Assembly: GCA_017512675.1 (NCBI GenBank)
Contig: JAFWEY010000191.1
Location: 1 to 34,790 of the forward strand
DNA from: Clostridia bacterium
Lineage (GTDB): Bacteria; Bacillota; Clostridia; Christensenellales; Aristaeellaceae
DNA: 34,790 nucleotides
Reading direction: 5' to 3'
Shown: positions 16,838-24,112 of the stretch, piece after piece
Numbering within the stretch: position 1 is the first letter of the stretch
Layout of the letters: each line of letters opens with the position of its first letter
Notes under the pieces: model-generated
Databases searched by the model: none
The model's input: only the letters and a program-made list of their open reading frames with translations
What the model was told of the DNA's origin: nothing
Made by a program: the position numbers and the translations under genes

Positions 16838-16878
16838 GCGATAAAGTGGCAGATTATCTCCCAAAAGGAGCTTTGCGG

Positions 16879-19800
16879 ATGCTTTCCAGGTTCAGCGTGG
16901 AAAAACCGTATACCGTGATCGTCGGGGTCATTCTGGCTCTGGTGCTGGGAGTCATCTCTTTCATGCAGATGACGACCGATCTGCTGCCCGAAATGAATCT
17001 CCCCTACGTTATGGTCATGACCGCGTATCCGGGGGCGAGTCCGGAGCAGGTGGAAAAATCGGTAACACGGCCGCTGGAATCCTCGATGGCGACGACGACC
17101 GACCTGAAAAAAATCACGTCAACATCGAACGAGAGCTATTCGCTGGTGGTTCTCCAGTTCAACTCAGGCACCAATATGGACACGGTGATGATCGAGCTCA
17201 ATTCCAAAGTGAATCAGGTGTCCGCCGGCTGGAGCGACGAGATCGGCGCGCCGACCCTGTTCAAGATCAATCCGAATATGCTGCCGGTGGTCGTCGCCGC
17301 GGTGGATATGGAAGGAAGCGACATCATCAGCCTTTCGGATTACGTGGAGAAGACGCTGCTTCCGCAGCTGGAGGCGGTTGACGGCGTGGCGCAGGTAACG
17401 GCCAGCGGCATCGTCGAGGAGACGATCGACGTTACCATCGACCAGACGCGCATCGACAGGATCAACCATACCATCCTGCAGGAAGTGGACAGCGAGCTTG
17501 CCGAGGTGGAGGACAAGCTGAACGAAGGGGAAGCGCAGCTGCTCGAAGCCAAGAAAATGCTCAGCAGAAAGGGCCGGCAGGGCCTGAATATGATCGACGA
17601 GGCGCTGAAGAAAGTTCGGGAAGCCAAAGCGCAGATCGCGGAAATCCTGCCGGGGCTGCAGGAGCAGCGCGCGCAGCTGGCTGCGCAGCTGGAAGCGGCG
17701 GAGCAGGGAAAGGCGCAGCTGGAAGGGGCGCTCGGCGGGATTCCGGAGGAAATGACCCCGGAACAGGAGGCCGCGCTGGCCGCGATGGAAGCGCAGATCG
17801 CCGAGCTGAAAAGCGCGATTGCCGACGTGGACCGGGAAATCGGGGAGATACAGGGAAAGCTGTCGGATACGGAGAAGAGAATCGAGGATCTTCGAAACCG
17901 GATCGCCGCGCTGGACAAGCCGGAAGAAACGGAGGACCCGGAATCGCCGGAGAATACCGAGCAGCCGGAGAATACCGAGCAGCCGGAGAACACCGACCAG
18001 CCTGAGAACACCGACGAACCGGAGAACACCGAGCAGCCGGAGAACACCGAGCAGCCGGAGAACACCGAACAGCCGGAGAACACCGAACAGCCGGAGAACA
18101 CCGAACAGCCGGAGAACACCGAGCAGCCGGAGAACACCGAACAGCCGGAGAACACCGAACAGCCGGAGAAAACCGAACAGCCGGAGAACACCGAGCAGCC
18201 GGAGAACACGGAGCGGCCGGAGAACACCGAGCAGCCGGAGAACACCGAGCAGCCGGAGAACACCGAGCAGCCGGAGAACACGGAGCAGCCTGAGAACACC
18301 GAACAGCCGGAGAACACCGAACAGCCGGAGGACACCGACCGGCCGGAGAACCCGGAGCAGCCGGAGGATCCCGATTCGGGGGAAGAGACGGATCAGAAAC
18401 AGGAACCGGAGCAAAAGCCGGAAGAGCAGAAGCCCGAATCGGAGCAGAAGCCCGAATCGGAAGAGAGGCCCGAATCGGAAGAGAGGCCCGAATCGGAAGA
18501 GAGGCCCGAATCGGAAGAGAAGCCCGAATCGGAAGAGAAGCCCGAATCGGAGCAGAAGGCCGACGAGCAGAAGTCTGAACCGGAACAGAAGCCCGAAGAG
18601 CAAAAGCCGGAAGAGCAGAAGCCCGAACCGGAACAGCCGAAGGACCCGAACGAAACCCGCGACGGCGACAGGGCGCGGCAGCGGGACGAGGCGCCTTCGG
18701 CCCCGGAAACACCGGGCGCTTCCGGCAGCGGGGAAACAAAAGACGTTCCCGCCTCTGAACCGACGCCAAAGCCGACGCCGGCGGCAAAGGAATCCGGCGG
18801 AGAAAAACCGGACGCGGCCTCCGGCTCCGGACGGGAAGAAAAACCCGGCGGGGAAAGCCGCCGGTCCGCACAGGGAATCTTCCTGATCAGCGCGTATGCC
18901 GAAGCCGAGCCGGCCAGCCGGGAAGAAATGGAAAGCGAACTCGCCGTGCTGCTGGAGCGTCAGAAGACGCTGGCGTCGCAGTTGGCGGACGCCCGGGAGG
19001 AGAAGGCATCCCTGGAAGCCCAGCTGCAGGCGATCCAGGGCAGCGAAGCCTATCAGGGGCTGGTTCAGCTTCAGCAGGCCGTTGCCTCGCGGCCGGCGCT
19101 GGAAGCGCAGCTTCAGCAGGCGGAGGAGGGGATTCCGCAGCTGCAGGAGGGGATCGCGCAGCTTGACGCGGTGATCGAAAAACTGCAGAAGGGGATCATT
19201 CCCGGCGGCATGATCGACGGGATCGACAAGGATACGGATCTCGATTCCGCGGAGTCCCAGCTCAAGGGCGCCCGGAGCACGGCAAAGAGCGCGATATCCG
19301 AAGCGCAGGCGAAGATCAGCGAAGCCCAGACGGAGCTGGGGAAAAAGCGGAAGGAATTTGAAGAAGCCCGGGAGGAAGCGTTCAAAAACGCGAAGCTGGA
19401 CGGCGTGATCACGGTTCAGCTGATCGGGCAGATTCTCGGCGCGCAGAATTTCGGCATGCCGGCCGGGTACCTGACCGAGGGCGACCAGGATTATCTGGTG
19501 CGGGTCGGCGAGGAATACGCGTCCGAAGCGGAATTGCGCAATACCGTCCTGTTCACGATGGAGCTGGATTCCATTCAGAAGGTGCGCCTGCGCGACGTCG
19601 CCAAAGTCAGAAAGACGGACAATTCGGCGGAAGTGTACGCGAAGGTCAACGGCAACAACGGCGTGCTGCTGTCCTTCCAGAAGCAATCCATCTGGTCCAC
19701 CTCGGAGGTCACGGACAATATTCTGGAGGAATTCGCGCGCCTGACCGGCGGGCAGGAGGGGCTCCGGATCACGACCCTGCTCGACCAGGGCATCTATATC

Positions 19801-21918
19801 GACATGGTCGTGAATTCCGTGCTGGAAAACCTGGGGTACGGCGGCATTCTTGCGATTCTGGTTCTGCTGCTGTTCCTGGGGGATTTCCGCCCGACGATCG
19901 TCGTCGCCCTTTCGATTCCGCTGAGCGTCGTGATCGCGTTCGTTACGATGTATTTTACCGGCATCACGCTGAACGTGATGTCGCTGATGGGGCTGGCGCT
20001 GGGCGTCGGCATGCTGGTGGACAACTCGATCGTGGTCATTGAGAACATCTACCGGCTGCACGGCGAAGGCATGCCGGTCCGCACGGCCTGCGTCACCGGC
20101 GCAAAGCAGATGTCCGGCGCGATTTTCTCCTCGACGCTGACCACGATCTGCGTGTTCCTGCCGATCGTGTTCACCCACGGCCTGGCCCGGGAGCTGTTCA
20201 CCGATATGGGGCTGACGATCGCCTATTCGCTGCTTGCGTCGCTGGCCGTGGCGATGACGCTGGTGCCGATGATGTGCAGCGGCCTTCTGAAGCGCAGGCG
20301 CGAGGGCAGGCACCGGCTGTTCGGGGCGGTGCAGAACGCCTATGCCGCGCTGCTGCGCGCGACTCTGCGCGTGAAGCCCCTGGTGCTTCTCCTCGCGGTG
20401 GGGCTTCTGGCGTTCAGCGTGAACCGGCTTGCCTCGATGGGAATCTCGTTTATGCCGGATGTGGATTCCACCCAGATGACGGTTTCGGTCGATATTCCGG
20501 TCAACGCGACGGACCTGGAAAAGTACGCGCTGATGGACGCGGTGTCCGAGGCGATCCAGACGGTTCCGGAGGTGGATACGGTCGGCGTATTCGATTCGGG
20601 ATCCGGCATGCTCCTCTCCTCGAGGGGCGGGGGAACCACGTTCTACCTGATGCTGAAAGAGGACAAGGGGCGCCGCAACACGGAAATCGCCCGGGACCTG
20701 GAAAAGGCGATCGCACCCGTCGGCCTGGAATGCAGCATCGCGACGAGCAATATGGATCTTTCGATGATGTCCGGCAGCGGCGTGATCGTGGATCTGATGG
20801 GCCCGGATCTCGATACCCTGCGCAGGCTGGGAACGGAACTGGCGGACGGCATGGCGGGGATCGAAGGCGCGGTGAACATCTCCGACGGCCAGGAGGCGAC
20901 CACCCCGGAAATGCGCCTGACCGTGGATAAGCGCAAGGCGGTGGAACACGGCCTGACCGTCGCCCAGGTGTACCAGTGGGTGGCGCAGCTGGTCTCGGAC
21001 GGCGCCGAGGTGACGCAGATCACCGTTCAGGACAAGGAATACCCGGTGATGGTCATCAACGGGCGGTATCTGGAGCTGACGCGGGAGACGCTGCTGGACG
21101 AAACGCTGGATGTGGACAAGGGAGACGAATCCCTGCAGGTCCGCCTGGGCGATATCGTCGAAATGCGGGAGGACACCTCGCTCCAGGCAATCAGCCGCAC
21201 CTCGCAGACGCGGTCCCTGCGGGTCTCCTGCGAGGTGGATCCGGATTACGATATCGGCGCGGTGGGAAGAAGCGTGGAGGAGCTCACGGCCGGGCTGCAG
21301 ATGCCGGAAGGCTATCGCGCGGAGGTCTCCGGCGAGAGCACGACGATCACCGACACCATGGCCGACCTGCGGCTGATGATCCTGCTGGCGGTGGCGTTCA
21401 TCTTCCTGATCATGGTTGCGCAGTTCCAGTCGTTTATGATGCCGTTCATCGTGCTGTTCACGGTGCCGCTGGCCTTTACCGGCGGGCTGCTGGCGCTTCT
21501 TCTGACCGGCATGGAATTCTCCGTGGTGTCGATGCTGGGGTTCCTGATCCTCTCCGGCGTAATCGTCAACAACGGCATCGTGTTCGTGGATTCGGTCAAC
21601 CAGATGCGGCTGGAGGGCATGGAAAAGCGGGAAGCGCTGCTCGAAACCGGACGCGTCCGCTTAAGGCCGATTCTGATGACCGCGCTGACCACGATTCTGG
21701 GCATGTCGACGCTGGCTGCCGCGCGGGGCATGGGCGCGGAGATGATGCAGCCGATGGCGGTGGTCACCATCGGAGGGCTCAGCTACGCGACGCTGATGAC
21801 GCTGTTCGTGGTGCCCGCGCTGTACGATCTGTTCACCGGAAAGAACATGAAGGACCGCAGGGTGCGCAGTGAGGGCGCAGAGGAAGAAGAACCGGATCTG
21901 TTCTCCGGGGAAGCCTGA
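16879..21918 (+). CDS. RND (AcrB/HAE1-like) efflux permease with giant coiled-coil and repeat insertion
   Basis: A proton-driven RND exporter of the SwrC/AcrB type, here 1679 residues against about 1030-1060 for the family. The ATG at 16879 follows AAAAGGAG by 8 nt. TM1 is at about 13-33 (VIVGVILALVLGVISF). The porter domain starts normally (PEMNLPYVMVMTAYPGASPEQVE) and is interrupted after residue 199. The insertion, about 200-838, holds: a heptad-rich coiled region (200-350); 23 PENTEQ-type hexamers (357-494); seven PESEEK-type hexamers (519-560); a Pro/Lys/Gly linker; a short hydrophobic patch GIFLISAYAEAE (about 666-677); and a second coiled region (678-838). The porter fold resumes at LDGVITVQLIGQIL. 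TM4 retains the relay aspartate in GMLVDNSIVVIEN. No HlyD/AcrA adaptor or TolC gene is adjacent. Its substrate is unknown. Confidence 0.93.
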   Translation: MLSRFSVEKPYTVIVGVILALVLGVISFMQMTTDLLPEMNLPYVMVMTAYPGASPEQVEKSVTRPLESSMATTTDLKKITSTSNESYSLVVLQFNSGTNMDTVMIELNSKVNQVSAGWSDEIGAPTLFKINPNMLPVVVAAVDMEGSDIISLSDYVEKTLLPQLEAVDGVAQVTASGIVEETIDVTIDQTRIDRINHTILQEVDSELAEVEDKLNEGEAQLLEAKKMLSRKGRQGLNMIDEALKKVREAKAQIAEILPGLQEQRAQLAAQLEAAEQGKAQLEGALGGIPEEMTPEQEAALAAMEAQIAELKSAIADVDREIGEIQGKLSDTEKRIEDLRNRIAALDKPEETEDPESPENTEQPENTEQPENTDQPENTDEPENTEQPENTEQPENTEQPENTEQPENTEQPENTEQPENTEQPENTEQPEKTEQPENTEQPENTERPENTEQPENTEQPENTEQPENTEQPENTEQPENTEQPEDTDRPENPEQPEDPDSGEETDQKQEPEQKPEEQKPESEQKPESEERPESEERPESEERPESEEKPESEEKPESEQKADEQKSEPEQKPEEQKPEEQKPEPEQPKDPNETRDGDRARQRDEAPSAPETPGASGSGETKDVPASEPTPKPTPAAKESGGEKPDAASGSGREEKPGGESRRSAQGIFLISAYAEAEPASREEMESELAVLLERQKTLASQLADAREEKASLEAQLQAIQGSEAYQGLVQLQQAVASRPALEAQLQQAEEGIPQLQEGIAQLDAVIEKLQKGIIPGGMIDGIDKDTDLDSAESQLKGARSTAKSAISEAQAKISEAQTELGKKRKEFEEAREEAFKNAKLDGVITVQLIGQILGAQNFGMPAGYLTEGDQDYLVRVGEEYASEAELRNTVLFTMELDSIQKVRLRDVAKVRKTDNSAEVYAKVNGNNGVLLSFQKQSIWSTSEVTDNILEEFARLTGGQEGLRITTLLDQGIYIDMVVNSVLENLGYGGILAILVLLLFLGDFRPTIVVALSIPLSVVIAFVTMYFTGITLNVMSLMGLALGVGMLVDNSIVVIENIYRLHGEGMPVRTACVTGAKQMSGAIFSSTLTTICVFLPIVFTHGLARELFTDMGLTIAYSLLASLAVAMTLVPMMCSGLLKRRREGRHRLFGAVQNAYAALLRATLRVKPLVLLLAVGLLAFSVNRLASMGISFMPDVDSTQMTVSVDIPVNATDLEKYALMDAVSEAIQTVPEVDTVGVFDSGSGMLLSSRGGGTTFYLMLKEDKGRRNTEIARDLEKAIAPVGLECSIATSNMDLSMMSGSGVIVDLMGPDLDTLRRLGTELADGMAGIEGAVNISDGQEATTPEMRLTVDKRKAVEHGLTVAQVYQWVAQLVSDGAEVTQITVQDKEYPVMVINGRYLELTRETLLDETLDVDKGDESLQVRLGDIVEMREDTSLQAISRTSQTRSLRVSCEVDPDYDIGAVGRSVEELTAGLQMPEGYRAEVSGESTTITDTMADLRLMILLAVAFIFLIMVAQFQSFMMPFIVLFTVPLAFTGGLLALLLTGMEFSVVSMLGFLILSGVIVNNGIVFVDSVNQMRLEGMEKREALLETGRVRLRPILMTALTTILGMSTLAAARGMGAEMMQPMAVVTIGGLSYATLMTLFVVPALYDLFTGKNMKDRRVRSEGAEEEEPDLFSGEA
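17947..18360 (+). repeat. Coding tandem repeat, 23 units of 18 bp (PENTEQ)
   Basis: Exactly 414 bp made of 23 in-frame 18-bp units, consensus ccggagaacaccgaRcag. Central units are almost identical, differing mainly at the GAA/GAG wobble. Edge units are degenerate: AAT codons in the first two, PENTDQ, PENTDE, PEDTDR and PENPEQ. One inner unit reads PEKTEQ and one PENTER. This is the pattern of an array homogenised by slippage or unequal exchange. It encodes an acidic, proline-punctuated and probably extended chain. Confidence 0.95.
18433..18558 (+). repeat. Second coding tandem repeat, 7 units of 18 bp (PESEEK/R)
   Basis: Seven in-frame units, consensus cccgaatcggaagagaRg, encoding PESEER, PESEEK or PESEQK. 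The same 18-bp period as the neighbouring PENTEQ array and the same Pro-Glu opening suggest a shared origin or a shared structural need. Imperfect PEEQK/PEPEQ units continue to about 18640. Confidence 0.9.
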
Positions 21919-22122: not shown

Positions 22123-22186
22123 TCCGCGGGGAACCGGAAGGGCGCCGGATGCGTCCAAAGAACACCACATTTCAATGAGGTATTCT

Positions 22187-24112
22187 ATGCTGCGAAGGAT
22201 TCGAATTCTGCGATATCTGACAATTGTTCTGCTGCTGCTGCTCTGCCTGTCCGCCCGCGCGGATCAGGAGCTGGTGCAGCGCGTTCTGAACGGCGAGGAC
22301 ATCCGCCTTACCTGCACCCTGGCGTTCCAGCGGGAAACGCCGGAAGAGGCGGCCGCCAAAACCATAACGCTGACCGCGCCGATGAACGGGAGCGAAAAGG
22401 CGCGGGTGGTGTTTGAATTTGCGGTCAGCGGCGAGCTCTCCCAAAGCGACAGCGCGGAGCTGACCGGGCAGCTGGGCGCGCTGGTGGGCGAAAGCGTTCC
22501 GTCGCTCAGCGGCGTGGACGCGCGCACGGCGGCCAATGCCATCGCCGGGAGCTTCGAGCAGAGGCGGGTTGCCTCCGACGGGGAAAGCGCGGTTTACGCC
22601 CGGGAAAACCTGTATCTTACCCGCCTTACGGTGTCGATCCCCTGGTATCCGTCGATGAAGCCGGGCGACAAGGGCGAAGAGGTTCAGAAGCTGCAGCAGC
22701 GCCTGATAACGCTGGGCTATCTGGACGGCGAGGCCGACGGGCAGTACGGAAAGCAGACGGCGCAGGCCGTCCGGGAAGCACAGGAAGCGCTGCGCGGCAT
22801 ACAGAAACGGAACATGGCAGAGCGAATGCCGGCGCAATCCGACGGGGTCGTGTCGGCGGATATCGGAATCGAAACCGCGCAGGCGGAACCGACCCTCGCG
22901 AACGACGGCGCCGCGGACAGCCTGACCGTCATGCTGCTGTATTCGGACGCGCCGGCGGAGAACACGGCCATCGATTCCGGATCGCCGAAGGCAGAGGTGA
23001 CGAGGCTTCAGCGCAGGCTTCTGGCGCTGGGATGCCTGACCGGCAAGGCGGACGGGGATTACGGCAGCATGACCAGGCTGGGCGTGAGGATTTTCCAGCA
23101 TTATAACGGCCTGCCGGAAACGGGCGCCGCGGACGAAGCGACGCTGCGGCTGATCTTCTCGAACAGCGCCGCAGCGCCGGATTACGAGCTGCTGCGGGAG
23201 GGCTCTTCCGGAGAAGCGGTCAAAAACCTGCAAAGGCGGCTCCGGCGGGGCGGCTTCTATACCGGGTCGGTGGACGGCGGTTACGGCGCCAGCACCGTGG
23301 AAGGCGTCAAAAACCTGCAGTCCTACCTGCGGGCAAGGCAGTCTTCCGGATTTGCGGACGGCGCGGAATACGAGCAGGATGCCGCGGGATTCCCGGAGGA
23401 GGAAGGAGCCGCCGCCGTGATCGAGGTCAACGGCGTGGCGGATCCGATGCTTCTTGACGCCTTTTATGCCAACGATTTTCCGATTGTACCGGAAGACGTA
23501 ATGAAGGTCGGCGCGACCGGCGAAGAAGTGGTTCGGCTGCAGCGCAGGCTCAAGACGCTGGAATACATGTATTCCAGTCCGGACGGGGATTTCGGGGAAG
23601 GCACCAAAGGCGCGATCCGGAAATTCCAGATGCGCAACAACCTGACTGCGGACGGCACGGCGGGCCGCAGCACGCTGGCGGCGCTGTTCTCGCTGGACGC
23701 GAAGCAGGCGCTGAAGCCGTACCTGCTCAGGGTCAGCACCGCGAAGCAGCGGGTATACGCCTACGCGCCGGACGACCAGGAGAATTACACGGTCCTGGTG
23801 CGCACGATGAAGTGTTCGACCGGCCGCGCCGGTTCGCCGACCCCCAAGGGAACGTACAAGGCCTCCACGGGCCCCGGCGCCCGCTGGCACTATTTCAAGA
23901 AATTCGGCTGCTGGGCGCAGTACGCCTATTCGATTCAGGGGGATATCCTGTTCCACTCGGTGCTGTACGGGTCCAGGGGCGGCGCGGTCACCCGATCGTC
24001 CGTCTACAATCTGGGCCGCAGGGCGTCACACGGCTGCGTGCGGCTCTCGGTGGAGGACGCGAAGTGGGTCTGGGAGAACTGCCCGAGAAATACGACGGTG
24101 ATCGTGGAATGA
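22187..24112 (+). CDS. Secreted L,D-transpeptidase (YkuD) with four peptidoglycan-binding repeats
   Basis: L,D-transpeptidases make 3-3 cross-links in peptidoglycan or attach proteins to it. The 641-residue protein has a signal sequence (about 1-25, LTIVLLLLLCLSARA). An N-terminal region of about 125 residues has no recognised domain. Four PG_binding_1 repeats begin near 159, 266, 339 and 440, each with a LQ(R)RL...LGY/DG.YG pattern. The YkuD domain (about 513-641) has His in ILFHSVLYG and the catalytic SHGCVRLS with C617. The ATG at 22187 follows GAGG by 6 nt; the ATG at 22175 has no ribosome site. No clear promoter was found between the 42-nt palindrome and the start, so readthrough may matter. 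Being secreted, it acts at the wall. Confidence 0.94.
   Translation: MLRRIRILRYLTIVLLLLLCLSARADQELVQRVLNGEDIRLTCTLAFQRETPEEAAAKTITLTAPMNGSEKARVVFEFAVSGELSQSDSAELTGQLGALVGESVPSLSGVDARTAANAIAGSFEQRRVASDGESAVYARENLYLTRLTVSIPWYPSMKPGDKGEEVQKLQQRLITLGYLDGEADGQYGKQTAQAVREAQEALRGIQKRNMAERMPAQSDGVVSADIGIETAQAEPTLANDGAADSLTVMLLYSDAPAENTAIDSGSPKAEVTRLQRRLLALGCLTGKADGDYGSMTRLGVRIFQHYNGLPETGAADEATLRLIFSNSAAAPDYELLREGSSGEAVKNLQRRLRRGGFYTGSVDGGYGASTVEGVKNLQSYLRARQSSGFADGAEYEQDAAGFPEEEGAAAVIEVNGVADPMLLDAFYANDFPIVPEDVMKVGATGEEVVRLQRRLKTLEYMYSSPDGDFGEGTKGAIRKFQMRNNLTADGTAGRSTLAALFSLDAKQALKPYLLRVSTAKQRVYAYAPDDQENYTVLVRTMKCSTGRAGSPTPKGTYKASTGPGARWHYFKKFGCWAQYAYSIQGDILFHSVLYGSRGGAVTRSSVYNLGRRASHGCVRLSVEDAKWVWENCPRNTTVIVE

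Follow-up and report, generated by a model that had tools for sequence, protein, structure and literature searches.

The mode of action of RND pumps in bacteria that lack an outer membrane has been named as an open question (PMC5417439). A stretch of 34,790 nucleotides from a Clostridia bacterium (assembly GCA_017512675.1, contig JAFWEY010000191.1; the whole stretch is called the window below) raises this question in a concrete form, as it encodes an RND permease whose docking domain is interrupted by several hundred additional residues. What is this insertion, how is it folded, and might it take part in export? An extended docking-domain loop was noted in 2017 in Bacillus cereus BC5435 and B. 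subtilis YerP (SwrC); the BC5435 loop was described only as Gln/Ser/Ala-rich, and neither a hairpin nor an acidic repeat tip was reported (PMC5417439). The window protein carries a docking-domain insertion, which is compared with these two loops by description only. In the searchable literature, which covered few subscription journals, no description was found of a clostridial RND hairpin family or of its acidic tips. Here, we combine structure prediction, repeat analysis and comparative genomics of clostridial relatives to characterize the insertion and to weigh its possible roles. Handles beginning with L denote loci and those beginning with G denote genomes.

Results

An AcrB-type permease interrupted in its docking domain

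The RND permease gene occupies positions 16879-21918 of the forward strand and encodes 1679 amino acids (Pfam ACR_tran, 5.5e-209). The open reading frame at 16846-21918 is real and open, and the GTG start at 16846 chosen by the ORF caller adds 11 residues to the protein; the most likely start of the gene is ATG 16879, preceded by a probable ribosome binding site, AAAGGAG, read in the sequence 8 bases 5' of this ATG (16864-16870, forward strand). A 1261-residue open reading frame on the reverse strand (17164-20949) mirrors the RND gene; it was judged an artefact, produced by codon bias and the repeats, with no evidence of a gene.

The ACR_tran match scores 696.8 bits against a curated cut-off of 28 and consists of two stretches flanking the insertion, the second and larger of which starts at profile position 203 and at residue 860 of protein P0001. 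In the 1679-residue numbering, the insertion comprises residues 199-838 (640 residues, nucleotides 17473-19392). It is preceded by TM1 and the initial portion of the porter/docking domain (residues 10-198; 16906-17472, forward strand; AlphaFold2 and AcrB alignment) and followed by the remainder of the docking and porter domains with TM2-TM12 (residues 839-1679; 19393-21915, forward strand; Pfam and PDB sequence matches). The cores of AcrB and other HAE-1 permeases align with the window protein on both sides, and the difference from AcrB is the 640-residue insertion after the equivalent of T199: in a single pairwise alignment with E. coli AcrB, from which this register is taken, T199 pairs with window residue 198 and P200 with residue 839. 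The insertion point lies 8 residues past the equivalent of AcrB N191, and the equivalent of S258 comes after the insertion. Disulfides are formed between AcrB N191C and AcrA P57C and between AcrB S258C and AcrA T217C (PMC8300762), and S258 belongs to the DN beta-hairpin, near the AcrA beta-barrel (PMC5404916). As judged from the aligned sequences, the insertion site is within the adaptor-docking DN subdomain.

An assembly fusion was considered as the source of the insertion and excluded, because these arms are also present in independent genomes. Pfam profile searches recognized neither an adaptor family nor a peptidoglycan-binding domain in the insertion, and a search of viral contigs with its N-terminal arm found no relative. 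Foldseek listed only RND folds for the model of window residues 1-1005; the model of a relative with a shorter insert, L012, matched BpeB (7wls; Z 46.5, rmsd 5.0 over 928 aligned residues) and AcrB (3noc; Z 44.3).

Among the coupling residues of AcrB, D407 is retained in the window protein and the positions of D408 and K940 are Asn. TM4 (20000-20060) thus reads D-N and TM10 (21550-21620) reads N-N, in place of the D407-D408 and K940-N941 of AcrB. These pairs recur in 70 of 76 (TM4) and 75 of 76 (TM10) insert-bearing loci, while the pattern did not read the others. They are a trait of the wider group, since insert-free clostridial pumps share both.

Predicted helical arms and a disordered acidic tip

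AlphaFold2 was run on window residues 1-1005 with 36 relatives. The N arm (residues 199-346; 17473-17916, forward strand) is predicted to be helical over residues 189-203, 205-286 and 294-346, with pLDDT of about 84-94 over most blocks, and the C arm (residues 679-838; 18913-19392, forward strand) over residues 679-720, 723-736, 738-770 and 788-837, with about 82-94 over most blocks. Between them lies a Pro-rich acidic tip (residues 347-678; 17917-18912, forward strand), which is predicted to be disordered from its composition and a pLDDT of about 35, against 80-94 for most arm blocks overall. The N arm, C arm and tip measure 148, 160 and 332 residues, respectively.

The hydrophobic period is consistent with heptads in the N arm (3.54 proximal, p 0.002; 3.48 distal, p 0.046) and the proximal C arm (residues 788-837; 3.60, p 0.012); the distal C arm (residues 679-770) has no significant heptad period (3.34, p 0.066). 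Hydrophobic residues of the arms fall mainly at heptad positions a and d, and a clear second hydrophobic face, as a closed barrel would want, was not seen. Methionines are few (4 in the N arm and 2 in the C arm). Both arms are interrupted: the N arm is kinked near an LPGL motif at about residues 253-256 (17635-17646, forward strand; break profile), ~55 residues from its base, and level with this kink the C arm breaks in the GIIPGGMIDGIDKDTDL region (residues 771-787; 19189-19239, forward strand; AlphaFold2 and break profile), ~50-66 residues from its base.

The tip has a net charge of -79, with Glu at 95 and Pro at 55 of its 332 residues. Tandem Repeats Finder detected an 18-bp repeat of 23.4 copies encoding PENTEQ hexapeptides (17946-18366, forward strand; score 667) and a second 18-bp array of the PESEEK/PESEER type (18424-18636, forward strand). 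The 21 PENTEQ-type units span residues 357-482, and 18 of the 20 base differences between them fall at third codon positions, which indicates that the repeat is translated in the RND frame and that its protein sequence is held. From the sequence alone, the initial annotation had placed the insertion at 17476-19395, within a few bases of the measured boundaries, and had described a roughly symmetric segment of about 640 residues with arms of about 150 and 160 residues around an acidic Pro-rich repeat core; all of this is borne out, and the arms are mostly helical and symmetric in the models of the window protein and of L012.

Where the acidic tip gives way to the C arm there is a short hydrophobic/aromatic patch, seen in the window (about 18870-18905) and in L004, L006, L007 and L008; its sequences across these loci are GIFLISAYAEA, SPFRALAE, RLPFGGAALAEE and WTPFFAAAEE, and it may be a contact of the tip. 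P/E/T-rich repeats of a similar kind are also present in further proteins of the same family that appear to be exported (L100, L101 and L103, the last adaptor-like by eye), and the repeat type might serve this group as a general spacer.

Probable pairing of the arms

An antiparallel pairing of the two arms, as first suggested by the initial annotation, is well supported by the fold of L012, a helix breaker near the midpoint, matched kinks and co-varying arm lengths. The 203-residue insert of L012, which has no tip, is modelled as a pair of helices, 104 and 101 residues long (182-285 and 293-393), joined by a 7-residue gap, with arm pLDDT of only 70-78. In 29 inserts of at most 345 residues with less than 50% mutual identity, the strongest helix-breaking window lay near the centre of the insert, at a mean deviation of 0.076 of its length versus 0.235 after shuffling, and none of 300 shuffles gave a value as low. 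When break profiles were averaged over the window protein and seven close relatives, the N arm and the reversed C arm correlated with r 0.62 at a lag of +8, which none of 2000 circular shifts reached; this match is suggestive only, because the profile has just two or three peaks. Arm lengths vary jointly, from 148/160 in the window to about 215/235 in L004, L006, L007 and L008.

The Gly/Pro breaks, against which the same annotation had cautioned, are indeed present in both arms, but they lie at corresponding heights and so point towards pairing. We also considered a fold that places the hairpin turn at the N-arm break (residues 287-293) and lets the tip branch off midway down the C arm; the matched kinks and the lengthening of both arms together make it less likely.

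Distribution and phylogeny of the insertion

A similarity search, biased by its design towards the query, yielded 80 clostridial loci, and the insert is at the same point in all 76 that have both flanks, with lengths of 126-804 residues (median 308). An even draw of 148 genomes over the class contained 72 near-full-length ACR_tran proteins, ten of which have frames longer than 1110 residues and carry inserts of 77-640 residues. The insertion is thus a recurring family, as a proposed profile search had left to be seen. Within the taxonomic family of the window organism, the gene is present in only some genomes, with strong matches in four (G015, G016, G019 and G022) of the 23 searched. Tip repeats differ from relative to relative (PENTEQ, GEGGT, PGQTDD, TDAATEAPS), but the tips have in common an acidic character and a high content of P, G, S, T, E, D, Q and N; L110, like L012, has an insert without a tip.

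In a quick maximum-likelihood tree of the permease cores, the 35 hairpin-type rows group together with support 99, although its long branches leave finer placement uncertain. Just outside this group are two rows whose insert has 77 residues and three rows with large inserts of other kinds, and the insert-free pumps L121-L123 form the next branch. On this core phylogeny, the insertion marks a single clostridial clade. The short, 77-residue form is found in L109 and L119, and genome G137 has both L119 and a 223-residue form (L115). More distant, order-level relatives (L132, L133 and L134) have other large inserts of 174-430 residues at the docking site, with additional stretches in the C-terminal half of L133 and L134 as well.

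Adaptor genes and genome context

No adaptor gene was found beside the RND gene among the neighbours scanned in the window. In the class sample, an RND_mfp gene lies within 2.5 kb of none of the ten insert-bearing pumps, among the matches listed, versus at least 55 of the 62 insert-free pumps (56 with L124, found later); Fisher's p is 3.6e-8 on gene counts in which related genes are treated as independent. A home-made adaptor HMM had no match in the flanks of L003-L082, L106-L119 and L132-L134, and adaptors are absent from the 25 commonest families of upstream neighbours. Downstream neighbours of insert loci include TetR regulators in 39 of 70 cases. A 1304-residue member in Vescimonas fastidiosa also has no adjacent adaptor.

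Several insert-free pumps share this arrangement. The sister pumps L121 and L123 have a phosphofructokinase gene upstream, a TetR gene downstream and no adaptor; three Bacilli pumps of insert-free length (L137, L138 and L140), from Pontibacillus, Bacillus badius and Priestia, have none annotated beside them, and a pump of Brevibacillus does have one. Working without a linked adaptor therefore does not require a stalk, and since the insert-bearing pumps are one clade, adaptor absence is confounded by descent and is no proof that the stalk replaces the adaptor. Judged from gene neighbourhoods, the absence may be as old as a wider group of monoderm pumps, or older. The lack of an adjacent adaptor gene pointed out for the window thus extends to the insert-bearing loci examined. 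The built-in adaptor that had been proposed agrees with these loci and loses force from the insert-free relatives that also lack a linked adaptor; this reading is plausible.

The window's own genome, about 83% complete, contains one ACR_tran gene. Its single strong RND_mfp match is on a different contig, where, as read from translations, this gene and a neighbour accompany a MacB-like ABC transporter. In comparison with tripartite RND systems, the window pump has no adjacent adaptor gene, and the same incomplete genome gave no match to the outer-membrane factor OEP (PF02321). The next gene downstream in the window (22175-24112, forward strand) starts ~256 bases past the RND gene and encodes four PG_binding_1 domains and a YkuD L,D-transpeptidase domain.

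Discussion

We favour, with a probability of roughly 0.55, a reading of the whole in which the window protein is an AcrB-type exporter with a hairpin stalk on its DN subdomain in the adaptor's place and a disordered acidic tip. The host would be a monoderm clostridium, and the hairpin of this AcrB-type RND pump, rising from the DN subdomain with ~150 residues per arm, would measure about 22 nm if straight and be kinked at two heights. We infer that the protein forms a trimer whose three hairpins would stand upright on the exit funnel, at the adaptor's position, and would carry the exit outward across the space beneath the wall, with the flexible acidic tip, which the initial annotation had pass through the peptidoglycan, perhaps entering it or resting against it. 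The stalk would work in place of an adaptor, without an outer-membrane partner. It need not be upright, because the experimental hairpins of MmpL4 are tilted by about 60 degrees and flexible (PMC12803245). Papers on the Gram-positive wall provided no usable width of the wall space.

MmpL4 and MmpL5 are likewise RND superfamily exporters with a long antiparallel coiled-coil hairpin pointing away from the membrane. MmpL5, the nearest parallel in working, has a 196-residue insertion that is needed for efflux and for which a hexameric tube of ~13 nm is predicted; this insertion is located in periplasmic domain 2, lined with Met, closed by a tip disulfide and partnered by MmpS (PMC12501195). The window hairpin belongs to the first periplasmic domain instead, is Met-poor and has a disordered acidic tip. 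The parallel with MmpL4/MmpL5 drawn in the initial annotation accordingly holds in kind and not in place: the window protein works alike at most and is not a member of that group. Adaptors of the AcrA/MacA type (RND_mfp) also have a coiled-coil hairpin tied to the RND docking domain, whereas the window hairpin is part of the permease chain.

The same hairpin could be a wall anchor or spacer outside the exit path, its tip binding or threading peptidoglycan while the substrate leaves at the funnel. The free variation of insert length (77-804 residues), tip length and tip sequence over a conserved pump core would suit such a role, as would the mainly single-faced heptads and the existence of insert-free pumps without a linked adaptor. 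We nevertheless hold it to be somewhat unlikely, given that the insertion is within the adaptor-docking subdomain, beside adaptor-contacting residues, and that no peptidoglycan-binding domain was recognized in it. By analogy with MmpL5, three hairpins might instead close into a six-helix tube taking the substrate through the wall space; the number of helices per trimer would equal that in the AlphaFold2 model of MmpL5 (PMC12501195), and both the position at the exit funnel and the symmetry of the hairpin agree with it. A hydrophobic pattern mainly at a and d, however, suits a hairpin and does not favour a tube, the arms are Met-poor, unlike those of MmpL4/5, and even the modelled channel of MmpL4 seems too narrow for substrates (PMC12803245), which makes a closed tube decidedly unlikely here. 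The boldest form of the idea, an adaptor-like coiled-coil tube fused into the permease as a stalk of ~22 nm or longer, with interchangeable acidic tips threading peptidoglycan, is in our view unlikely.

It is highly improbable that the insertion is tolerated low-complexity and coiled-coil padding, itself without function. The rapid turnover of the tip repeats, which differ among relatives, would be expected of padding, but the insert is kept at one point in every full-length relative of the similarity-biased set (76/76), its arms are symmetric with matched kinks, relatives retain acidic tips, and nearly all base changes within the repeat are at third positions. The stalk in the adaptor's place remains our preferred reading.

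Conclusions

RND pumps with such a stalk are a widespread but little-described clostridial family, and a stalk with a changeable acidic tip appears to be undescribed in the searchable literature. A clade-wide hairpin at the adaptor-docking site, with no linked adaptor, makes the role of the stalk in export testable, and natural length variants are available, with about 126 to 804 residues in the clade and a 77-residue form just outside it. Beside MmpL4/5, the family is a second, independent case of an RND permease growing its own coiled-coil extension. If the fused tube were real, it would be a one-protein route past a thick wall, convergent with MmpL5 and AcrA. More generally, the family may show how RND pumps reach into a thick cell wall.
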